DNA from: Oscillospiraceae bacterium
Lineage (GTDB): Bacteria > Bacillota > Clostridia > Oscillospirales > Oscillospiraceae
DNA length: 56,596 nucleotides
Assembly: GCA_017632775.1 (NCBI GenBank)
Contig: JAGBQR010000034.1
Span: forward strand, 1-56,596
Direction of reading: 5' to 3'
Below are positions 29,473-39,590 of the stretch, in pieces. The position numbers and the translations under genes are program-made. Each line of letters starts with the position of its first letter. The first letter of the stretch is position 1. The notes below the pieces were generated by a model, which did not search any database, had not been told where the DNA came from, and saw only the letters and a program-made list of their open reading frames with translations.

Positions 29473-30204
29473 ATGGACTTCGATCGGATAAACGAAAACC
29501 CGGAGGGCACGAGGGGGAACACACTGCGGCAGCAGCTCAGTCTGGGAGGGGATTTCGCCGCGGTGGCGGAACTTTTCCGCCTGCTGGATGACAGCAGCCG
29601 CGTGCGGATCTTCTGGCTCCTCTGTCATTGTGAGGGCTGTGTGATCGAATTGGCGGAGATGACCGGCATGTCGAGTCCTGCACTGTCTCATCATCTGAAA
29701 CTCCTGCGGGAAGCGGGAATGATCACGGCGCGCAGGGAAGGGAAAGAGGTATATTACCGCGCATCGGAGACTCCGGCCTGCAGGCTGCTCCACAATGTGA
29801 TCGAAAAGGTCATGGAGATTTCCTGCCCGGAAACGGAAACGGGGAATGAAAAGCAGGTCAGGGCGTCCTCGGAACAGATCGAGACAGTGCGAAGGATGCA
29901 TGATGAACTGCTGCAGCATCCGGAAAGAAGGATCACGATCGATGAACTTGCGCGGCAATACCTGATCAACCCGACAACGCTGAAAGAGGTTTTCAAAGAG
30001 GTATACGGAGATTCCCTGGCCGCGCATATGAAGGAGCACAGGATGGAAAAAGCCGCTGAACTGCTTCTGCGAAGTGATGAGAGCATCTCCGCTGTCGCCG
30101 GAGCGGTCGGATATGACAGCTCCAGCCGTTTTTCTGCAGCGTTCAGAGAGCGTTATCACCTGCTTCCGAAAGAGTACCGCCGGCTGTACAGGAAAATTAT
30201 GTAA
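29473..30204 (+). CDS. ArsR-type metalloregulator fused to an AraC-type DNA-binding domain
   Basis: 243 residues. Residues ~25-110 form an ArsR/SmtB winged helix: AVAELFRLLDDSSRVRIFWLL, a Cys-rich metal site CHCEGCVIELAEM in the position of the ELCVCDL motif, the recognition helix SSPALSHHLKLLREAG, and the wing ITARREGKEVYYRAS. Residues ~150-240 form an AraC-type double helix-turn-helix (TIDELARQYLINPTTLKEVF; SISAVAGAVGYDSSSRFSAAF, then a short basic end). The parts are in one frame with no internal start evident. The protein would sense a metal through its Cys residues and control the divergent HMA-ATPase operon. The role of the second DNA-binding domain is unknown. Confidence 0.88.
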   Translation: MDFDRINENPEGTRGNTLRQQLSLGGDFAAVAELFRLLDDSSRVRIFWLLCHCEGCVIELAEMTGMSSPALSHHLKLLREAGMITARREGKEVYYRASETPACRLLHNVIEKVMEISCPETETGNEKQVRASSEQIETVRRMHDELLQHPERRITIDELARQYLINPTTLKEVFKEVYGDSLAAHMKEHRMEKAAELLLRSDESISAVAGAVGYDSSSRFSAAFRERYHLLPKEYRRLYRKIM

Positions 30205-30306: not shown

Positions 30307-30335
30307 TTGACATACCAGGCCTGAATCAGTAAAAT
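30307..30335 (+). promoter_or_regulatory. Strong promoter of the pta-thiolase-DUF35 operon
   Basis: Consensus TTGACA (30307-30312) and TAAAAT (30330-30335), 17 bases apart, 69 bases before the pta ATG. I see no obvious operator palindrome in the leader. Confidence 0.8.
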
Positions 30336-30404: not shown

Positions 30405-31409
30405 ATGGATATCATGGAGAAAATATATGCGCGTGCGGCAGAAGATCCGCAGCGTATCGCATTCCCGGAAGCGACCGATGAAAAGATCCTTCTGGCGGCC
30501 AGAGAATGCTGTGACAAGGGCCTGATCATACCGGTCCTCGTAGGTGATTCTGCTGCGATTCGGGCAGCGGCCGAAGGATTCGGGATCAGCCTGGACGGAA
30601 TGGAGTTTTACGACACTTCCGACGCAGAGGCCGTAGCGGCACTGATCGCGGAGTATGCTCCGATGAATGAGATGCTCTCGGAAAAGGCCCTCACCAAACG
30701 TGCCGCACGCGACTGCATGTTCCCTGCGCTGTATCTGCTTGCTGTAGGCAAGGTGGATGCGATGTTTGCCGGTATGACCCATACGACCGGAGAAGTCATT
30801 CAGGCGGGCATGCTCATCATCGGCCTTGAAGACGGGATCATCACACCGTCCTCCGTCGGCATTGCAAAGATCCCCGGATTCAACGGATCTGAAGGCGATC
30901 TTCTCTGCTTCGGAGATTCCGCTGTCTGTGTCAATCCGAATCCGGATGAGCTGGCGTCGATCGCCATTGCGGCCTGCGATACCGTCAAGGGACTGATGGA
31001 CTGGGATCCCCGCTGTGCCATGCTCTCCTATTCCACAGACGGTTCTGCCGAGAGTCCGCTGGTGGATAAAGTCCGCCAGGCCCTCGCCATCGCTCATGCG
31101 ACCAGACCGGAGTATAAGATCGACGGCGAATTCCAGCTCGATGCGGCGATCGATCCCCGCGTTGCGGCAAAGAAAGTCAAAAGAGAAAGTGAAGTGGCCG
31201 GAAAGGCGAATATCGTTATCTGGCCGGATCTCAATGTCGGCAATATCGGCGTGAAGCTCGTTCAGTTCTTCTCCCATGCGGATGCATACGGCCCGCTGCT
31301 GCAGGGCTTTAAAAAGATCGTCTGCGACTGCTCCAGAAGCGCTCCCGTCACGGAGCTTGTGGGGAATATCGTTATGGCGGCCGTGCGTGCCCAGAGCCAG
31401 AAAAAGTAA
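30405..31409 (+). CDS. pta: Phosphate acetyltransferase (phosphotransacetylase)
   Basis: 334 residues, the length of the short, catalytic-domain-only Pta form. It contains RIAFPEATDEKILLAARECC, DAMFAGMTHTTGEVIQAG, IIGLEDGIITPSSVG, the CoA/phosphate-site stretch MLSYSTDGSAESP, GEFQLDAAIDPRVAAKKV and NIVIWPDLNVGNIGVKL. It converts acetyl-CoA and phosphate to acetyl phosphate and CoA, feeding ATP formation by acetate kinase; no ackA is adjacent. A relaxed acyl specificity cannot be excluded. Instead of ackA it leads an operon with a thiolase and a DUF35/carrier fusion, 27 bases before the former. Confidence 0.92.
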   Translation: MDIMEKIYARAAEDPQRIAFPEATDEKILLAARECCDKGLIIPVLVGDSAAIRAAAEGFGISLDGMEFYDTSDAEAVAALIAEYAPMNEMLSEKALTKRAARDCMFPALYLLAVGKVDAMFAGMTHTTGEVIQAGMLIIGLEDGIITPSSVGIAKIPGFNGSEGDLLCFGDSAVCVNPNPDELASIAIAACDTVKGLMDWDPRCAMLSYSTDGSAESPLVDKVRQALAIAHATRPEYKIDGEFQLDAAIDPRVAAKKVKRESEVAGKANIVIWPDLNVGNIGVKLVQFFSHADAYGPLLQGFKKIVCDCSRSAPVTELVGNIVMAAVRAQSQKK

Positions 31410-31436
31410 TTAATTAAGATAAACGGAGGAACCTAT

Positions 31437-32729
31437 ATGAATCCCTTTAATCAGACCAACCCCAGACCTTACGGTCGTTCGGTTTCCATTATCGGTGTTG
31501 GCTGCACCCCCTTTATGGAGACGCTGAACAACCCCGAAACGGAGGGACTTACCGACGGTGAACTCTTTGGTTACGCCGCCCTGAAGGCGATGGAAGACGC
31601 CGGAGTCACACCCAAGGATGTCCAGTTCTATTATCATGGCTGTGCAAGCCCGCTGAACGGCAGCAACTATCTTACTCCGAACATGCAGGTCGCGGAATGG
31701 TTCGGTATGCGCGGCAAAGCTTCTGTACACCACTCCGAAGCCTGCTGCACGGGATATCTTGCCGTGGACATTGCCGCGCAGGCGATCGCGTCCGGCAAGT
31801 ATGATATTGTCCTCACCGGCGGTATCGATTTCGGCGATGCTCTGGCCGAACAGGGCGTGCCTGCCCACATGCGTCACCATTTCTCCTTCGAAGAGTTCCA
31901 GCGTTCCACCGAGTGGCTCACGGACAACGCCTATTCCAGACATCTGCTTGCCAATGTCGGCCACGACTACGGCGCTGTCTGGTATCAGGAGAAAGCGGGC
32001 CTCACAGATGATGAGATCGACAAAGCTCTCTGCAAACTTGCCATCATTGCCCGCGAGAATGCCAAGAACAATCCGCTTGCCATTGATCATAAGACCTATC
32101 AGGAAGAAGCCAGGGAAGCCGGGTACGACGACGTGATGGAATACATGCAGTCCGACCTGAACCCCAAGATCGGACAGGCCCAGCGCATCACCGGACTGGA
32201 GCACAAGTGTGACGGCGCGACCTGCCTGATCCTCTGTGCTACCGATCTGGCGGAGAAATACACCAAGAACAAGCCCATCGAGATTCTTGGAGTCGGCAAT
32301 TCCGCCCTTGAAGCCAGCAACCCGATCCTTGAGATCGACGCTACCCGTGAAGCCTGCCGTCAGGTCTATAATGAGACCGGACTGACGGGGGATGACATCG
32401 ACCTGATGTATATCAATGACTTTATCATCACCTCTCAGCTTCTTGCTTCCGAACTGGCAGGATATATCCCAGAGAATCAGGCTTGGAAATATGTGATGGA
32501 TGGCCGTACCCGCTTTGACGGAGACAAGCCCATCAACCCCAACGGCGGACGCTGCGCATTCGGACATGCCCATGCGGCATCCGGGCTTGCAGACTTCTAT
32601 GATGCGGTCCTGCAGATCCGCGGCAAGGCGGAAGATCACCAGATCAAAAAGCAGCCGAAAACGGTTTTCCTCCGCGGATTCGGCGGCGGCCAGAACGTCT
32701 GCACCGTGATCATCCGGGAAAAAGACTGA
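31437..32729 (+). CDS. SCP2-type thiolase-like acyltransferase
   Basis: 430 residues, GGAGG upstream. The thiolase fold is clear, with C103 in EACCTGYLAV at the nucleophile position and IVLTGGIDF after it. D328 in INDF matches the second-half acid motif, and G376-H377 in NPNGGRCAFGHAHAASG is the active-site His loop. The C-terminal GFGGGQNVC replaces the usual CxG motif of biosynthetic thiolases. This is the SCP2/archaeal-type group that forms complexes with DUF35 Zn-ribbon/OB proteins, and such a protein is encoded next. It could condense or cleave acyl thioesters. The absence of the classical second Cys motif leaves the reaction open. Confidence 0.85.
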   Translation: MNPFNQTNPRPYGRSVSIIGVGCTPFMETLNNPETEGLTDGELFGYAALKAMEDAGVTPKDVQFYYHGCASPLNGSNYLTPNMQVAEWFGMRGKASVHHSEACCTGYLAVDIAAQAIASGKYDIVLTGGIDFGDALAEQGVPAHMRHHFSFEEFQRSTEWLTDNAYSRHLLANVGHDYGAVWYQEKAGLTDDEIDKALCKLAIIARENAKNNPLAIDHKTYQEEAREAGYDDVMEYMQSDLNPKIGQAQRITGLEHKCDGATCLILCATDLAEKYTKNKPIEILGVGNSALEASNPILEIDATREACRQVYNETGLTGDDIDLMYINDFIITSQLLASELAGYIPENQAWKYVMDGRTRFDGDKPINPNGGRCAFGHAHAASGLADFYDAVLQIRGKAEDHQIKKQPKTVFLRGFGGGQNVCTVIIREKD

Positions 32730-32747
32730 GAAAGGGGAAGTAGAGAT

Positions 32748-33737
32748 ATGGCTATCAAACTGGAAAGACTTGTCAAGACCTATTATGACACCCTTGAAGA
32801 GGGCAAAGTCCTCGGAAGAAAATGCCCGGTATGCGGCAATGTGGAGTGGCCTCCGGTCTATGCCTGCAATGCCTGCGGCGCCATGGAGACCGAATGGTGC
32901 GAGATGAGCGGGAAAGGTGAGATCATTCAGCTGATCCAGCCCACGGCCATGAGTCTGAAGCCGGCCTACAAACATCTTGAACCTTACGCTTACGCCTGGG
33001 TCAAATGCGCGGAAGGACCGGAGAGAAACGTGATGATCCGCGGGATAACCCGTCAGAATGCGGCTTATGTGCGTGCTCATCTGCCCTATCCGGTGCATAT
33101 GGAAATCGTCCAGATGAACCGGTATAAGACCTGCGTTTTTGCCATCGATCCCATCGAGGCGGACGGAACCCCGGCCAAGGCAGCGGAACCGGCTGCAGCA
33201 GCGCCCGTGAGCGGGACGCTGGAGGCTCTCAAGGAACTGTTTGCGCAGACCTACGGTGTCGATGCTGCCACTCTGAGCGGTGCCACCCTCCTTGAGGATA
33301 TGCAGGGACCTTCCGTCAAATTCGTTGGACTCGTTGCCCGTCTTGAAGATGAGTTCGATGCGGTCATTTCTGTTACGGAGGCGTCTGCTGCCAAGACGAT
33401 CGGCGGCCTCGCGGCTTTGATCGACGGCGGAGAGGCAGCCCCTGCTGAATCAGCGGCCGCAGCGGCTCCTGCAGATACGGCATCAGCTGCCGGAGCCGAG
33501 GAAGAGAGCGAGACGCTTCAGGCGCTCAAAGAACTCTTTGCCAAGACCTATAAGGTGGACGCTTCCACGCTGAAAGCGGACACACCGATGGATTCATTGG
33601 AAGGACCGTCCGTCCTCTTTGTCGGCCTTGTGGCCCGTCTTGAGGATGAATTCGACGCGGTCATTTCCGTTACGGAGGCGTCTGCTGCCAAGACAATCGG
33701 CGGCCTCGCCAAACTGGTCGACGCTGAGAGAGAATAA
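32748..33737 (+). CDS. DUF35 Zn-ribbon/OB-fold protein fused to two acyl-carrier-like domains
   Basis: 329 residues, starting 18 bases after the thiolase. Residues 26-43 are a rubredoxin-like zinc ribbon (CPVC...CNAC), and residues ~50-140 are the OB fold (GKGEIIQLIQPT; VMIRGI). An Ala/Pro linker leads to two carrier-like domains, about 157-225 and 255-325. Each has an ALKELFA(Q/K)TY first helix and a GPSV(K/L)FVGLVARLEDEFDAV second helix. The Ser at 189 and 288 aligns with the phosphopantetheine Ser of acyl carrier proteins, but the motif is P-S-V rather than D-S-L. DUF35 proteins assist thiolases and HMG-CoA synthases; the double carrier fusion is unusual to me. Confidence 0.85.
   Translation: MAIKLERLVKTYYDTLEEGKVLGRKCPVCGNVEWPPVYACNACGAMETEWCEMSGKGEIIQLIQPTAMSLKPAYKHLEPYAYAWVKCAEGPERNVMIRGITRQNAAYVRAHLPYPVHMEIVQMNRYKTCVFAIDPIEADGTPAKAAEPAAAAPVSGTLEALKELFAQTYGVDAATLSGATLLEDMQGPSVKFVGLVARLEDEFDAVISVTEASAAKTIGGLAALIDGGEAAPAESAAAAAPADTASAAGAEEESETLQALKELFAKTYKVDASTLKADTPMDSLEGPSVLFVGLVARLEDEFDAVISVTEASAAKTIGGLAKLVDAERE
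33306..33412 (+). repeat. Direct repeat, copy 1 (carrier-like domain)
   Basis: A 107-base segment of the first carrier-like domain, repeated 297 bases downstream. Over the last 76 bases the copies differ at five positions, all third-codon and silent. This points to recent duplication or gene conversion under strong protein-level selection. Confidence 0.85.
33603..33709 (+). repeat. Direct repeat, copy 2 (carrier-like domain)
   Basis: Second copy of the 107-base segment starting at 33306. It encodes the same FVGLVARLEDEF helix and the following EASAAKTIGGLA. Confidence 0.85.
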
Positions 33738-33747
33738 ACGAAGAAGA

Positions 33748-33796
33748 ACACAAAAGAGCAGATCCTCCCGAGAAGGGAGGATCTGCTCTTTTGTGT
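33748..33796 (+). terminator. Terminator of the pta-thiolase-DUF35 operon
   Basis: ACACAAAAGAGCAGATCCTC continuing to CCC, pairs perfectly with its complement around a five-base loop and ends in TTTTGTGT. Confidence 0.9.
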
Positions 33797-34683: not shown

Positions 34684-34719
34684 AGAAAAACCGGTCCCTC
34701 AAGGGACCGGTTTTTCTTT
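34682..34719. terminator. Bidirectional terminator shared by the BspA-like gene and rnfB
   Basis: AAAGAAAAACCGGTCCCT and its exact complement around a two-base loop, T-rich on both strands. Confidence 0.9.
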
Positions 34720-35519
34720 CAGACATCCTTCATGAATTCGATGCATTTCACAGGGCAGTTCTGTACACATTTGCCGCAACCGTTGCAGAGTGTGTAGTCG
34801 ATCCGGGCAACGTTGTAATGCAGGGTGATGGCTTTCTGCTCACATTCCCGGACACATCTTCCGCAGGCGATGCAGCCGGCCTTGCACTGCTTCCGGGTGT
34901 CCACGCCCTTTTCATGGTTGGCGCACATGACGGTAGGCCTGGGCTCGCGCAGAGGCGGATAGAGATAAATGATCTTTTTCGGACAGACATCCTTGCAGGA
35001 GCCGCAGCCCGTGCATTTATCCTTATCGATCACGGCAACACCGTTCTCGATACGGATTGCATCAAACTTGCATACCCGTACGCAGTCCCCGAAGCCGAGG
35101 CAGCCGAAGGGGCAGGAGCGGTTTCCGTTATATACGGAGTTACAGGCCGAGCAGGTCGGTATTCCATTGTATTCAAAGCGCTGTGACGTGTTGTCCAGAT
35201 TTCCTCGGCAGGCGACAAAGGCTTTGTACGGTTCGGTATCTCCTGCGTCCGTGCCCATGATCTCGGCTATTTTCGCTGCGGTGTCCGCACCGCCGGGAAC
35301 ACAGCGGTTTACAGCTTCACCTCCGACGATCGCCTTGGCGTATGCCGCGCATCCGGCAAATCCGCAGGAACCGCAGTTGGCTCCCGGGAGTGCCTCTGTG
35401 ATCTCGCCGACCCGGCGGTCTTCCTTCACGGCAAGGATCCGGGAGGCAATCACCAGCACGATCCCGCCGACCAGACCAACAGCGGCGATTACGATAACAG
35501 CTATCATGATTCCATTCAT
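34719..35519 (-). CDS. rnfB: Rnf complex subunit RnfB (ferredoxin-binding iron-sulfur subunit)
   Basis: 266 residues from ATG 35519, with AGGAGG eight bases upstream; the longer frame to 35591 overlaps rnfA. One N-terminal membrane helix (IAVIVIAAVGLVGGIVL) is followed by the RnfB Fe-S domain LPGANCGSCGFAGCAAYAKA. Multiple ferredoxin-type clusters follow: CPFGCLGFGDCVRVC, CTGCGSCKDVC, CIACGRCVREC and CNGCGKCVQNC. It receives electrons from reduced ferredoxin and passes them into the membrane complex. It is the last gene of the operon, 13 bases after rnfA, and ends at the shared hairpin. Confidence 0.95.
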   Translation of the reverse strand: MNGIMIAVIVIAAVGLVGGIVLVIASRILAVKEDRRVGEITEALPGANCGSCGFAGCAAYAKAIVGGEAVNRCVPGGADTAAKIAEIMGTDAGDTEPYKAFVACRGNLDNTSQRFEYNGIPTCSACNSVYNGNRSCPFGCLGFGDCVRVCKFDAIRIENGVAVIDKDKCTGCGSCKDVCPKKIIYLYPPLREPRPTVMCANHEKGVDTRKQCKAGCIACGRCVRECEQKAITLHYNVARIDYTLCNGCGKCVQNCPVKCIEFMKDV

Positions 35520-35532
35520 ACAGAAAACCTCC

Positions 35533-36129
35533 TTAAGCCCCGAAGATGTTCTCCACGAGCCCGCCGAAGCCGGTGAAGCATAGCGCCACAATGGCGGCGG
35601 AGATCAGGGTGATGGGCAGATCCTGGAAGGATTTGGGCGGTCTGGCGCGTTCCACGCTGCGGCGAACGATAGAGAACAGGACCATTGCCAGCAGGAATCC
35701 GAGTCCCGCACCGACGGAGCAGATCATCGATTCAAGAAAATTGTATCCTTCATCGATGTTCAGGATCGTCACGCCGAGCACGGCGCAGTTGGTGGTGATG
35801 AGGGGCAGATAGATGCCGAGGGCGGAATAAAGGGGCGGAACATATTTACGCAGTACGAGTTCCAGCAGCTGAACGAGGATCGCAATGACGAGAATGAACA
35901 CGATCGTCTGGAAGCTTTCCAGATGCCACAGTTCCAGCAGCTGCTGCAAAGGCCAGGTTACCGCGGTGGCAAGGGCCATGACGGCGGTAACGGCAAGACC
36001 CATGCCCGAGGCGGAATCCATCTTTTTACTGACGCCGAGAAAAGAGCAGATCCCGAGAAATTTGACGAGAACATAGTTGTTCACCAGGATCATGCTGAAG
36101 AAAATCGATGCAAGTTTAGCGGCTGTCAT
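35533..36129 (-). CDS. rnfA: Rnf complex subunit RnfA
   Basis: 198 residues, six membrane helices. Typical features are the N-terminal FFSMILVNNYVLVKFLGICSF with the cluster-binding Cys in the first helix region, TAVMALATAVTWPL, and ITTNCAVLGVTILN with the second conserved Cys. RnfA and RnfE are homologous with inverted topology and hold a [2Fe-2S] cluster between them in the membrane. They form the core through which electrons cross and ion pumping is coupled. It overlaps rnfE by four bases and is 13 bases from rnfB. Confidence 0.96.
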   Translation of the reverse strand: MTAAKLASIFFSMILVNNYVLVKFLGICSFLGVSKKMDSASGMGLAVTAVMALATAVTWPLQQLLELWHLESFQTIVFILVIAILVQLLELVLRKYVPPLYSALGIYLPLITTNCAVLGVTILNIDEGYNFLESMICSVGAGLGFLLAMVLFSIVRRSVERARPPKSFQDLPITLISAAIVALCFTGFGGLVENIFGA

Positions 36130-36785
36130 GCTGTTACATCCTCCTTACTGCTGATTTCTGCGGAGGCAGGTTCCGTGTTCACGGCTTCTTTCTTTCTGTT
36201 TTTGCGAAGATCCAGATATGCGGCGGCGGCCATCAGGATTCCGAATACGAAGAAGCCGCCGGGAGGTGTGATGAATACGATCATCGGCGGGATCGGAAGA
36301 TGGAGATTCAGACCGAATATGCTTCCGTTTCCGAGAATCTCACGGATCGTTCCCATGAGCACAAGAGTGAGCGTGAAGCCAAGACCCATTCCGAGTCCGT
36401 CCAGCGCTGAGTCAAATACTTTGTTCTTGGAGGCGAACATCTCCGCTCTTCCGAGAATGATGCAGTTGACAACGATCAGAGGCAGATAAACACCGAGCGA
36501 GGAGTTCAGAGCCGGCAGATAGGCGCGTACCAGCAGCATCAGGATCGTGACGAACGTTGCGATGATGGTGATATAGGCGGGAAGACGGACTTTGGAAGGA
36601 ATGACGTTCCGGAGAGCTGAAATGGCGATGCCGGAAAAGATCAGGACGAATGTGGCGCTAAGACCCATTCCGAGACCATTCATGGCCAGGGTCGTGACGG
36701 CCAGGGTGGGACAGGTGCCCAGAACAAGACGGAGAGCCGGGTTTTCCTTTAAAATACCGTTGAGGACAATATCAGCTTTTTTCAT
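36126..36785 (-). CDS. rnfE: Rnf complex subunit RnfE
   Basis: 219 residues, about six membrane helices. Landmarks are NPALRLVLGTCPTLAVTTLA at the N-terminus, IPSKVRLPAYITIIATFVT, and YLPLIVVNCIILGRAEMFA, which mirrors the Cys-bearing helix of RnfA. A charged C-terminal tail of ~35 residues (RKNRKKEAVNTEPASAEIS) extends into the cytoplasm. It is the partner of RnfA in the membrane core and overlaps rnfG and rnfA by four bases each, so the operon is translationally coupled here. Confidence 0.95.
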   Translation of the reverse strand: MKKADIVLNGILKENPALRLVLGTCPTLAVTTLAMNGLGMGLSATFVLIFSGIAISALRNVIPSKVRLPAYITIIATFVTILMLLVRAYLPALNSSLGVYLPLIVVNCIILGRAEMFASKNKVFDSALDGLGMGLGFTLTLVLMGTIREILGNGSIFGLNLHLPIPPMIVFITPPGGFFVFGILMAAAAYLDLRKNRKKEAVNTEPASAEISSKEDVTA

Positions 36786-37318
36786 GATGCGTTTCCTCCG
36801 GTTACAGTCTTATAGGCTTCCATGGCAAGGTTGATGGCGGAAACGGACGCCCGGGAAGAAATCGTTGCGCCGGAAACGGCGTCGATCCCGTCCAGGGTCA
36901 GTTTATCGGCTTTCTTTCCGGAAAACTGTTCATAGAAAGAAGGAAGAGTGACCTTCTGGCCGAGTCCCGGGGTTTCGCTGTTGTCCATCATGACGACGCG
37001 GATGATATTTCCGGAATCGTCAAAACTGACGGCTGCCGGGACCTGGCCGCCGTACCCTCTGGACTGTGCGGTGATCACATAGCCGGCACCATTGTCTGCT
37101 TTCAGCACCGCGGTGACACCATCGATCTCACAGGGGAGCTGTGTGAAGGAATCGGCTTCGGGAAGCACCTCATAATAGACCTTATAGGTGCTTTCACGAA
37201 CGTTTTCACTGATTATAGGGGCAGTCAGATGATCTACTTCTGCAAGCAGAAACGCGGAAACAGCCGCGATCGCAAGAAGAACAAGAACCGGCTTGATGTA
37301 TTCTCTCCAGGATTTCAT
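36782..37318 (-). CDS. rnfG: Rnf complex subunit RnfG (covalent FMN subunit)
   Basis: 178 residues. One N-terminal membrane helix (VLLAIAAVSAFLLAEV) and an extracytoplasmic FMN-binding domain. The flavinylation motif is SGAT in DAVSGATISSRAS, whose Thr carries FMN by a phosphoester bond. GYGGQVPAAVSFD and DNSETPGLGQKV are further family marks. It overlaps rnfD and rnfE by four bases each. The flavin transferase ApbE needed for attachment is not encoded in this window. Confidence 0.95.
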   Translation of the reverse strand: MKSWREYIKPVLVLLAIAAVSAFLLAEVDHLTAPIISENVRESTYKVYYEVLPEADSFTQLPCEIDGVTAVLKADNGAGYVITAQSRGYGGQVPAAVSFDDSGNIIRVVMMDNSETPGLGQKVTLPSFYEQFSGKKADKLTLDGIDAVSGATISSRASVSAINLAMEAYKTVTGGNAS

Positions 37319-38250
37319 TTCTTCGCGGCACCTCCTCCCAGGGGGACCCTTCTGGTCTTCTCATTGATAATGGGTACCAGAAGGTTCATGAGCAGGATCG
37401 AGTAGCTGACACCTTCGCGCATGTTTCCGAAGAAGCGGATCATGCACGTAATGACGCCGCAGCCTGCGGCAAATATGATCTTCCCGAGATGCGTGTAGGG
37501 AGAGGTCACATAATCAGTCGCCATGAAAATGGCTCCGAGGAGGAGTCCGCCGGACAGGACCTGCTGCAGGGGATTATAACCGAAGATCCAGCTGAGCACG
37601 AAGACGGTTCCGACATATACAGCCGGGATCGTGATTTCAATCGTATGTGTGACAAGCAGCCAGATGAGTCCGGCCAGGAGTGCTACGGCACAGGTTTCAC
37701 CGATCACTCCGCCATGTGTTCCGAGCAGAAGATCCATCAGAGGAAGTCCTGCCTTGCCGGCGGCGAGCGGAGTGGCGGAGGTGAGCGCGTCACAGGCTTG
37801 GAAGAGCCGCGGATAGGTGTATGAGGTCATCAGAGAGGGAAAACTGACCGCCAGCGTGATCCTGGCGACGATCGCCGGGTTGGCGAAGTTGTAGCCGATC
37901 CCGCCGAACAGCTCCTTCACCACGATGATCGCGACGATTGCCCCGATGACCGGTATATACAGAGGAATGGAGGCAGGCAGGTTGAAAGCAAGCAGCAGAC
38001 CGGTGATTATTGCGGAGAGGTCTCTGATGGACTGCTTTTCCTTCCGGACAGCGCACCATGCAGCTTCACAGAGCACAGCGGAAGCCACCGAGACGGCTTC
38101 TACCAGCAGAGCACGGAAACCGAACAGGATCACGGAGGCGACCAGGGCAGGCATCAGGGCGAGGATCACGTTCAGCATGATGGATTGCGTCGTGTCTTTG
38201 GAGCGAATATGCGGAGAAGCGGAAACAATATAGTTTTCCTGCATATCCAT
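37315..38250 (-). CDS. rnfD: Rnf complex subunit RnfD
   Basis: 311 residues, about nine membrane segments. The N-terminus (VSASPHIRSKDTTQSIMLNVI) is typical of RnfD/NqrB. The covalent FMN site is TSATPLA in ACDALTSATPLAAGK. GGIGYNFANPAIVAR and FMATDYVTSPYT are further conserved loops. It binds FMN covalently and probably takes part in ion translocation. It starts inside the rnfC stop (TAATG overlap) and overlaps rnfG by four bases. Confidence 0.95.
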   Translation of the reverse strand: MDMQENYIVSASPHIRSKDTTQSIMLNVILALMPALVASVILFGFRALLVEAVSVASAVLCEAAWCAVRKEKQSIRDLSAIITGLLLAFNLPASIPLYIPVIGAIVAIIVVKELFGGIGYNFANPAIVARITLAVSFPSLMTSYTYPRLFQACDALTSATPLAAGKAGLPLMDLLLGTHGGVIGETCAVALLAGLIWLLVTHTIEITIPAVYVGTVFVLSWIFGYNPLQQVLSGGLLLGAIFMATDYVTSPYTHLGKIIFAAGCGVITCMIRFFGNMREGVSYSILLMNLLVPIINEKTRRVPLGGGAAKK

Positions 38251-39590
38251 TATTTTTTACCCCCTTTCCCGCTTTTTTTGAGGATCCCCTTGGAGAGTGT
38301 CATTACTTCTGTCAGCGGACGTTTGGCCGGACAGACATAGCTGCAGCAGCCGCAGCCGATACAGATATCCACATTAAGGCCTTCAAACTTATCAAATTCA
38401 TAGCGTTCAAACGCCATCCCGATTTCCACAGGAGAAAGGCCCATGGGACAGGCACTGATGCACCTTCCGCAGTGGATGCATGGCGTGATCTCCGGGGTTT
38501 TTGCCAGTTTCTCGGAGAAGGCAAGTACTCCGTTGTTCTGACGCACGATGGGGTAATCTGTCCGGAACTGTGCCACGCCCATCATCGGTCCGCCGAGGAT
38601 CACCTTCTTGGGGTCTTCCTTTAACCCGCAGTAATTGAGAACGTCCTTGATCTGTGTCCCGATGGGGACCTCGAGATTCTTGGGGTTCTCGATGGCGTCT
38701 CCGGCCACGGTCAGACGCTTGCTGACGAGAGGCATCCCTGTCTGAAGGTATTTGCCGATCGAGGAGACTGTCGTCACGTTCAGCATGATCACGCCGACCA
38801 CCGTATGTCTTGCCCCGCGGGGTACGATCCGTCCGGTCGCGTTTTTGATGAGGATGTTCTGGGCGCCCTGCGGATAGCGGGACTGGAGAACACAGACATC
38901 GATCCGGTCATCGCTCGCGGCCTTTTTCGTCATCAGGTCGATCGCAGCTTCCTTGTTGTCCTCGATGCAGATCAGGCACTTGGGGATATCCAGGTATTTC
39001 AGGCATGCATCGATTCCATAGAGAATGGTGTCGGGATGCTCGAGAAATTCACGGTTGTCCGTTGTCAGATACGGTTCACATTCAGCTCCGTTGATGAGCA
39101 GAGTGTCGATGTCAGGCAGGTTTTTCGGCTGCACCTTGATATCGGTCGGAAAACCCGCTCCGCCCAGTCCGACGATACCGGACATGCTGAGCGCGTCCAC
39201 AAAGCTGGTGAAGTCGTGGACTTCAGGAGGCTTGATGGAAGGATCCGGTTCCTGCAGACCGTCCGGCTTGACGATGACGATCGTTTCGCCCATACCGGCT
39301 TTATGAAAGATCCTTTCGATGCCGGAAACCGTCCCGGAAACACTGCTGAAAATATGCATGCTCATGGCTGTCGGCGCTTTGCCTACCATGGTGCCCACAT
39401 ACACATGGTCACCCTTTTCAACGCAGGGCACGCACGGGGCGCCGGTATGCTGGACCATGGAAATGACGACCTGTTCCGGGAGAGGGAGATACTCAGTGGG
39501 GAAGTTTGCCGTGTCCTTGTGATGCCGGATTTTGAGACCGCCGGTTTTCTGCCTGGTACCGGCATATTTGAATACATCGCTGAATCCCAT
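38250..39590 (-). CDS. rnfC: Rnf complex subunit RnfC (NADH-binding)
   Basis: 446 residues, the first gene of the operon, GAGGA upstream of the ATG. The N-terminal part carries the barrel-sandwich region (PLPEQVVISMVQHTGAPCVPCVEKGD). The NuoF-like nucleotide region has GIVGLGGAGFPTDIKVQP, INGAECEPYLTTD and ILGGPMMG. Two ferredoxin clusters follow: CIHCGRCISACPMG and CIGCGCCSYVCPAKR. It oxidises or reduces NAD(H) at the membrane and exchanges electrons with the other subunits. The promoter and the Rex-type site lie directly upstream. Confidence 0.96.
   Translation of the reverse strand: MGFSDVFKYAGTRQKTGGLKIRHHKDTANFPTEYLPLPEQVVISMVQHTGAPCVPCVEKGDHVYVGTMVGKAPTAMSMHIFSSVSGTVSGIERIFHKAGMGETIVIVKPDGLQEPDPSIKPPEVHDFTSFVDALSMSGIVGLGGAGFPTDIKVQPKNLPDIDTLLINGAECEPYLTTDNREFLEHPDTILYGIDACLKYLDIPKCLICIEDNKEAAIDLMTKKAASDDRIDVCVLQSRYPQGAQNILIKNATGRIVPRGARHTVVGVIMLNVTTVSSIGKYLQTGMPLVSKRLTVAGDAIENPKNLEVPIGTQIKDVLNYCGLKEDPKKVILGGPMMGVAQFRTDYPIVRQNNGVLAFSEKLAKTPEITPCIHCGRCISACPMGLSPVEIGMAFERYEFDKFEGLNVDICIGCGCCSYVCPAKRPLTEVMTLSKGILKKSGKGGKK

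Follow-up and report, generated by a model that had tools for sequence, protein, structure and literature searches.

What would a phosphotransacetylase, a thiolase and acyl-carrier domains do together in one operon? The question is raised by three genes in a 56,596-nucleotide stretch of DNA (the window; contig JAGBQR010000034.1, assembly GCA_017632775.1) from a metagenome-assembled genome (MAG) of an Oscillospiraceae bacterium. Open reading frames (ORFs) and Pfam matches bear out the initial annotation of three tightly spaced genes for a phosphotransacetylase (Pta) homologue, an SCP2-type thiolase homologue and a DUF35 protein with two carrier domains. Coordinates and strand came out as first given (334, 430 and 329 amino acids), with gaps of 27 bp between the Pta and thiolase genes and 18 bp between the thiolase and DUF35 genes:

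30405-31409, plus strand: Pta homologue of a carrier-linked clade (Pfam, alignment, tree)
31437-32729, plus strand: thiolase homologue of the DUF35-partnered (SCP2-type) group (Pfam, alignment)
32748-33737, plus strand: whole DUF35-carrier-carrier fusion gene (Pfam)
32748-33164, plus strand: DUF35 region of the third gene, a four-cysteine zinc ribbon and an OB domain (Pfam, family profile)
33213-33440, plus strand: acyl-carrier domain 1, predicted phosphopantetheine attachment at Ser189 (33312-33314) (Pfam, alignment)
33507-33734, plus strand: acyl-carrier domain 2, predicted phosphopantetheine attachment at Ser288 (33609-33611) (Pfam, alignment)

The answer that we consider probable is a carrier-protein version of the phosphotransacylase route, running from acyl-enzyme to acyl-carrier to acyl phosphate to ATP, in which the carrier would replace coenzyme A (CoA). 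A ketone-type substrate would give up an acyl group to the thiolase/DUF35 pair, at Cys103 of the thiolase homologue, and the phosphopantetheine thiol on one of the DUF35-borne carriers, not free CoA, would accept it from there. From the swinging carrier the neighbouring Pta-like enzyme would receive the acyl thioester and form acyl phosphate. This would be turned into ATP and the free acid by a butyrate-kinase-like enzyme, whose gene lies in related genomes beside the module or elsewhere. The phosphopantetheinylation, the use of a carrier instead of CoA, the direction of the reactions and the ATP yield we infer from sequence comparisons.

The residue pattern of the Pta homologue is what argues most strongly for a carrier as partner. 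The protein matches PTA_PTB (E = 4.9e-84, 282.8 bits against a cut-off of 24) and falls under the TIGR00651 pta equivalog cut-off (241.9 bits against 311.2). It lacks the equivalents of MtPta Arg87, Arg133 and Arg287 and keeps those of Asp307, Ser309 and Arg310. A PTA_PTB search gave 36 matches in 13 genomes, of which the 30 with loci were aligned: 12 that we ourselves labelled housekeeping-type, 16 cluster-type and 2 Ptb-type. Five unaligned matches are weaker, partial and like the Ptb type, and G627:C130 was added to the alignment later. The window's MAG, which is 65% complete, had no housekeeping-type match. The 16 cluster Ptas comprise 12 linked to a thiolase and four linked to an S15 hydrolase or accompanied by AcpS only, and a carrier was seen in 15 clusters. 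All three arginines are present in 12/12 housekeeping-type Ptas. Arg87 and Arg133 are absent from all 16 cluster Ptas (14 distinct) and Arg287 from 12 of them, and the catalytic Asp307, Ser309 and Arg310 are kept in 16/16. The cluster-type proteins form one clade (support 99/98) in a tree built without the Ptb-type pair and without two duplicates of G749_C3. A one-residue insertion occurs in 15/15 rows of this clade and 0/17 others, with added basic residues at the insertion in 12 of the 15; the carriers are acidic. We make no claim about the timing of the arginine loss, because long branches with the Ptb rows made rooting unsafe. Excerpts of a study of MtPta place Arg87 and Arg133 at CoA site 2, with effects mainly on Km, and Ser309 and Arg310 at site 1, with effects on kcat (PMC6461089). 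The changes are those that we would expect if the partner had shifted from CoA to an acidic carrier, although they do not prove it. A change of MtPta Asp316 to Glu, tried as a further carrier sign, was dropped because the housekeeping-type Ptas of the same genomes share it. One carrier-clade Pta without Arg133 lies at L110:6361-7386, with CaiB-type CoA-transferase-like and dehydratase-like genes nearby (named by eye, like many neighbour genes in this study, from their first 100-150 residues).

The DUF35 protein would supply both the partner of the thiolase and the carriers. Pfam finds PP-binding (PF00550) in two stretches of it (E = 3.6e-17, 62.8 bits against a cut-off of 20.8) and zf-ChsH2 (E = 1.3e-5, 25.4 bits against 23.2); OB_ChsH2_C stays under its cut-off (E = 0.013, 15.8 bits against 27.1). 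The zinc-ribbon cysteines C26, C29, C40 and C43 are invariant across nine sequences. A profile built from nine related DUF35 regions matches 11 PDB sequences at E ≤ 0.01, and seven of these (E 6e-12 to 1e-3) are partners of thiolase-fold proteins: 6esq_E (6e-12), ChsH2 (9e-11), 9myr_B (2e-10), three PhlB-type proteins and BbsA (4e-4). The others are two DUF35/Zn-ribbon proteins and two ribosomal Zn-ribbon proteins (6e-4 and 6e-3). The two carrier domains form a 235-nucleotide direct repeat with 74% DNA identity and are 71% identical in protein. A serine stands in the column of E. coli AcpP Ser36 in 18/18 aligned carriers (16 distinct, some pairs about 10% identical), and is visible by eye in three more (L107, L109 and the second L072 domain). 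The initial annotation had taken the C-terminal domains for phosphopantetheine carriers; the PF00550 match and an attachment serine aligned in both domains agree with this as far as sequence goes, and the carriers are probably phosphopantetheine-modified. Carriers in tandem turn up in three unrelated settings: the lineage of the window, the G139 lineage, whose two carriers are 85% identical to each other and 23-29% identical to those of the window, and a fusion to an S15 hydrolase in L072.

The thiolase homologue matches Thiolase_C_1 (1e-23) and Thiolase_N (1.8e-7). Residues H67, C103, D328 and H377 are kept in 14/14 aligned rows (12 distinct); in the window the nucleophile Cys103 is encoded at 31743-31745 and the GH histidine His377 at 32565-32567. 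The HDxF motif is replaced by [NQ]D[FL] in all 14 rows (NDF in the window). PDB relatives read HDAF (7yvy, 7pxp), HDCF (6esq) and HDMA (4yzo) at this site, and PhlC reads YDLL. Because HDxF is absent, we call the protein a homologue and not a member of the SCP2-type thiolases. It does not reach the NCBIfam equivalog cut-off for BbsB, a benzoylsuccinyl-CoA thiolase (90.1 bits against 750). The lack of a CxG motif, first put forward against a plain acetoacetyl-CoA thiolase, is not diagnostic, since PDB 7yvy, by name an acetyl-CoA acetyltransferase, also reads NIGGTGSN there. An equivalence of H67 with PhlC His56 was dropped, the two residues falling in different alignment columns.

Is the gene set conserved? 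Two other Oscillospiraceae MAGs (loci L001 and L002) have these three genes in unchanged order and share the flanks of the window, namely a YbaK-like gene, a SLOG-like gene (both by eye) and a leucine-rich repeat (LRR)-type protein, so the three ORFs do not lie together by chance. Elsewhere in the window's GTDB family the set recurs at nine further loci, where the carrier is either a separate protein or fused in one or two copies. The order is thiolase, DUF35-carrier-carrier, Pta in L049, L065 and L071; thiolase, DUF35, separate carrier, Pta in L050, L066 and L068; and thiolase, DUF35, Pta, carrier in L070. In L069 a single stretch carries thiolase, DUF35-carrier, another carrier and Pta, and genome G627 is split, with thiolase and DUF35 on contig L067 and carrier, Pta and kinase on contig L107. 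Counting these two contigs as one, and with the window, L001 and L002, there are 12 carrier-bearing thiolase clusters. The neighbourhood comparison proposed earlier thus found the gene set conserved, and the gene order kept in L001 and L002 but changed in distant relatives. As the clusters lie within one GTDB family and are related, the counts are not independent. Over 13.4 kb, L049:1-13425 and L065:2260-15684 are 99.3% identical, although their genomes (G139 and G749) belong to different genera, and L071 aligns to L049 at 98.8%; because the DNA is nearly identical across genera, the three were counted as one recent, horizontally moved lineage. The transferred cluster looks catabolic and holds genes for AcpS, a regulator, Buk, an acyl-ACP (acyl carrier protein) thioesterase, a ferredoxin, a flavin adenine dinucleotide (FAD) reductase, an Fe-hydrogenase-like protein, the thiolase, the DUF35-carriers, Pta and a major facilitator superfamily (MFS) protein. 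A decayed thiolase and DUF35-carrier copy, in pieces with stop codons, was seen at L052:3561-4929 (G479).

The thiolase profile (E ≤ 1e-60) matched 11/400 genomes of the family; among 398 phylum and 391 class genomes the sole match was that of the window itself. Nine other genomes of the same genus in the family listing gave no match, and the operon is therefore patchy. An initial thiolase search (E ≤ 1e-20) had matched 10/200 family genomes, five of them through distant thiolases only (identity 29-35%, E 6e-31 or weaker); these five were dropped and one (L053) was inspected. Across the order, 124/394 genomes matched the DUF35-carrier protein, three (G000, G139 and G295) over the DUF35 part; the remaining matches, carrier-only or otherwise partial with E above 1e-7, were dropped. 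Also left out were a fragment (L003) and a Paenibacillus match (L004, 34%, carrier part only).

If the carriers work as proposed, a phosphopantetheinyl transferase and an acyl kinase would be needed as well. A phosphopantetheinyl transferase gene is present in 6 of the 12 carrier-bearing thiolase clusters, AcpS-type in L049, L065 and L071 (one lineage; L071 from its alignment to L049) and in L067, and Sfp-type in L050 and L069. Of ten PF01648 matches in eight genomes, five are no more than about 10 kb from a module (binomial with uniform placement, 1e-8; G139 and G749 not independent); none was found in the genomes of L001 and L002. The genome of L002 has at L075 a divergent Sfp-type gene (NCBIfam AcpT/AusB/HetI matches of about 1e-6, far under the cut-offs) close to genes for a Buk-like kinase, a flavin mononucleotide (FMN) reductase and a metallo-beta-lactamase-fold protein. 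The genome of L001 has a 61% relative of this transferase-like gene and the window's incomplete MAG has none. A butyrate-kinase-like gene occurs in 9/12 clusters. The missing ackA had been taken to point away from a plain acetoacetyl-CoA thiolase, a weak argument: the window's assembly (65% complete) has no acetokinase-family match, which may reflect the incomplete MAG, and acetokinase-family genes occur in 8/8 related genomes searched.

In L072, L067 and L109 the back end of the module (a carrier, a Pta from the carrier-linked clade and a Buk-like kinase) is joined to an S15/PepX_C hydrolase (L072:6214-8703, L067:3768-5921, L109:2278-4299), which we take to be of the cocaine-esterase (CocE) kind. 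Two carriers are fused N-terminally to the hydrolase in L072 and one in L067; in L109 the carrier is separate. AcpS accompanies the L072 and L067 modules, and the contig of L108 opens with a truncated ORF, behind which lie AcpS, Pta and kinase genes. In L069 both thiolase/DUF35 and S15 genes occur, alongside a single Pta and a single kinase. Since the back end stays and the acyl-cleaving enzyme varies, the recurring core is the carrier, the carrier-type Pta and the kinase, often with the transferase.

The initial annotation had suggested that the carriers could hold the acyl group on which the thiolase acts and that Pta links it to acyl phosphate. This proposal is partly supported and comes out stronger, because the carrier serine is conserved, phosphopantetheinyl transferases lie nearby, the Pta has lost CoA-site arginines and kinases are encoded next door, all of which would suit such a role. 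A number of observations weigh against a carrier in place of CoA. In the window, L001 and L002 neither a kinase nor a phosphopantetheinyl transferase adjoins the operon, and whole-genome searches of the window's MAG found neither, which means little because that MAG is 65% complete. No transferase was seen in the fetched stretches of L066, L068, L070 and L109, and the edges of L066 hold CoA-type genes (3-hydroxyacyl-CoA dehydrogenase-like and dehydratase-activator-like, by eye). The thiolase/DUF35 loci L048, which has a Ptb-type gene, and L051 are without a carrier. The clade member G627:C130, which lacks Arg133 and the basic residues, adjoins a CaiB-like CoA-transferase gene (by eye), and no carrier was seen across 10.6 kb around this Pta (locus L110) or on the short contig of the cluster Pta G662:C208. 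Both aligned Ptb-type proteins also lack Arg87 and Arg133, and Ptb uses CoA; PDB 1vmi, a putative phosphate acetyltransferase, has no Arg87 equivalent in the alignment. Finally, Arg87 and Arg133 belong to the lower-affinity CoA site, and mutants of Porphyromonas gingivalis Pta (PgPta) were only moderately affected, according to the portions available of that work (PMC6461089).

These points lead to the best surviving alternative, ordinary CoA-dependent catabolism, in which the thiolase would split a 3-ketoacyl-CoA, Pta would work on acyl-CoA and the carriers would only scaffold or regulate. DUF35-partnered thiolase-fold enzymes such as BbsAB, the archaeal thiolase and Sal act on CoA thioesters, going by PDB names and extracts of PMC12329534, and Arg87 and Arg133 are described as non-essential in PgPta in the accessible text of PMC6461089. 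A close carrier-free system exists in L048 (thiolase, DUF35, Ptb-type and Buk), and CoA-type genes lie near L066 and L110 (by eye). Against such an account stand the serine in 18/18 carriers, the phosphopantetheinyl transferases inside clusters, the loss from cluster Ptas of CoA-site arginines that housekeeping-type Ptas keep, and [NQ]D[FL] for HDxF in 14/14 thiolases, and we regard it as unlikely.

Acyl carriers are typical of biosynthesis, and the module could instead be loaded from acetyl phosphate, with Pta making acetyl-carrier and the thiolase condensing it or C-acylating an acceptor, as PhlACB does in Pseudomonas. PhlC and PhlB are among the PDB relatives, and acyl transfer by PpATase is reversible and CoA-independent in the excerpted account of PMC6392133. 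The clusters of related genomes look catabolic, however, with their acyl kinases, transporters (by eye), esterase, and Fe-hydrogenase-like and flavoprotein reductases. No ketoreductase, dehydratase or acyltransferase set was noticed by eye, and no search was aimed at one; likewise no PhlA-like or HMG-CoA-synthase-like third subunit was noticed by eye among the listed cluster genes, with no search aimed at PhlA. We judge biosynthetic loading quite improbable. A retro-aldolase with an aldol substrate bound to the carrier is very improbable, even though Ltp2-ChsH2 and Sal-Shy are DUF35/thiolase-fold aldolases and ChsH2 is among the PDB matches of the DUF35 profile, because Sal, in the part of PMC12329534 at hand, has Gly at the position of the thiolase nucleophile while Cys103 is kept in 14/14 rows here, and because a Pta partner suits an acyl product, not an aldehyde.

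The proposed carrier route has partial counterparts. Known thiolase-fold enzymes with a Zn-ribbon/OB partner show the same pairing and keep the nucleophilic Cys and the GH histidine; here the partner carries or travels with acyl-carrier domains, Pta and an acyl kinase are added, and the HDxF site reads [NQ]D[FL]. Pta-AckA and Ptb-Buk likewise join a PTA_PTB enzyme to an acetokinase-family kinase, which would give acyl phosphate and ATP, but here Arg87 and Arg133 are lost and there are a basic insertion loop, a carrier of its own and often a phosphopantetheinyl transferase of its own. Protein C of glycine reductase (GrdC/GrdD) makes acetyl phosphate without CoA by a thiolase-fold and Pta/PlsX-fold pair; compared by description only, it has the same fold pairing and differs by its selenoether substrate and by having no acyl-carrier protein or DUF35. 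PlsX, an acyl-ACP:phosphate transacylase, is a precedent in a related fold for making acyl phosphate from acyl-ACP, but is biosynthetic, acts on long chains and belongs to another family. Citrate lyase and malonate decarboxylase likewise serve catabolism, each with a dedicated acyl carrier and machinery for its prosthetic group; they differ in using a modified dephospho-CoA group and in not passing the acyl group to phosphate. In a search of the open-licence literature (bioRxiv preprints outside its scope), none of the papers listed describes this or a like system, judged by titles and abstract beginnings.

As to the substrate, our guess is that a C-acyl compound, a 1,3-diketone or an acylphenol-like molecule, would fit, because no CoA ligase was noticed among the thiolase-cluster genes read by eye; no search was aimed at one. 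PhlC forms acyl-Cys from a C-acylated phenol without CoA, as stated in the excerpts of PMC6392133, and this chemistry is a precedent for the use of an unactivated ketone. The clusters of related genomes also hold MFS-type transporters (by eye), an esterase, FMN reductases, FAD reductases and Fe-hydrogenase-like proteins, which suggests uptake and breakdown of some organic compound. At L002:1029-3561, upstream of the operon, lie genes for a C-glycoside deglycosidase beta subunit (PF19906, 2.5e-32), a TIM-barrel protein and an amidohydrolase; the ORF lists of L001 and the window show no such genes at that place. The subunit gene, about 4.2 kb upstream of the operon, is a weak hint at plant phenolics, but being absent from those lists it was not used to name a substrate.

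Three further features surround the operon:

30307-30335, plus strand: sigma-70-type promoter-like site, TTGACA-17-TAAAAT, 11/12 consensus matches (consensus only)
33749-33795, plus strand: perfect hairpin of at least 20 bp past the operon, a possible terminator (folding; the scanner flags the minus strand only)
29473-30204, plus strand: ArsR-AraC fusion regulator gene upstream (Pfam, neighbourhood)

The scanned region has 5 promoter-like sites against 2.6 ± 1.4 in shuffles, and 4 terminator-like sites in all against 5.3 ± 2.5. The hairpin has a folding energy of -43.9 kcal/mol (z = -9.5). The regulator combines an ArsR-type N-terminal with an AraC-type C-terminal DNA-binding domain and may control the operon. 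An ArsR-AraC-like gene adjoins the operon in L002, and none is among the listed ORFs of L001. In the window the regulator also adjoins a heavy-metal P-type ATPase (by eye), and no such ATPase is among the listed ORFs of L002. Just past the LRR protein behind the operon, genes on the opposite strand (34719-39590) read by eye like an Rnf electron-transport operon.

The known routes of substrate-level phosphorylation from acyl groups are CoA-based (Pta-AckA, Ptb-Buk). We tentatively place the operon in a family of acyl-harvesting modules in which energy may be conserved by thioesters of acyl carrier proteins, not of CoA, with interchangeable thiolase/DUF35 or S15 front ends, a dedicated and often tandem carrier, a carrier-specific phosphotransacylase and acyl kinase, and possibly substrates that are never activated with CoA. 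If the carrier does replace CoA, the module would be a self-contained route from acyl compound to ATP that need not tap the CoA pool and in which the acyl group stays bound to the enzyme. A testable function would then follow for a Pta subfamily that family membership alone would label as ordinary phosphotransacetylase, as well as for the carrier-fused DUF35 and S15 proteins.

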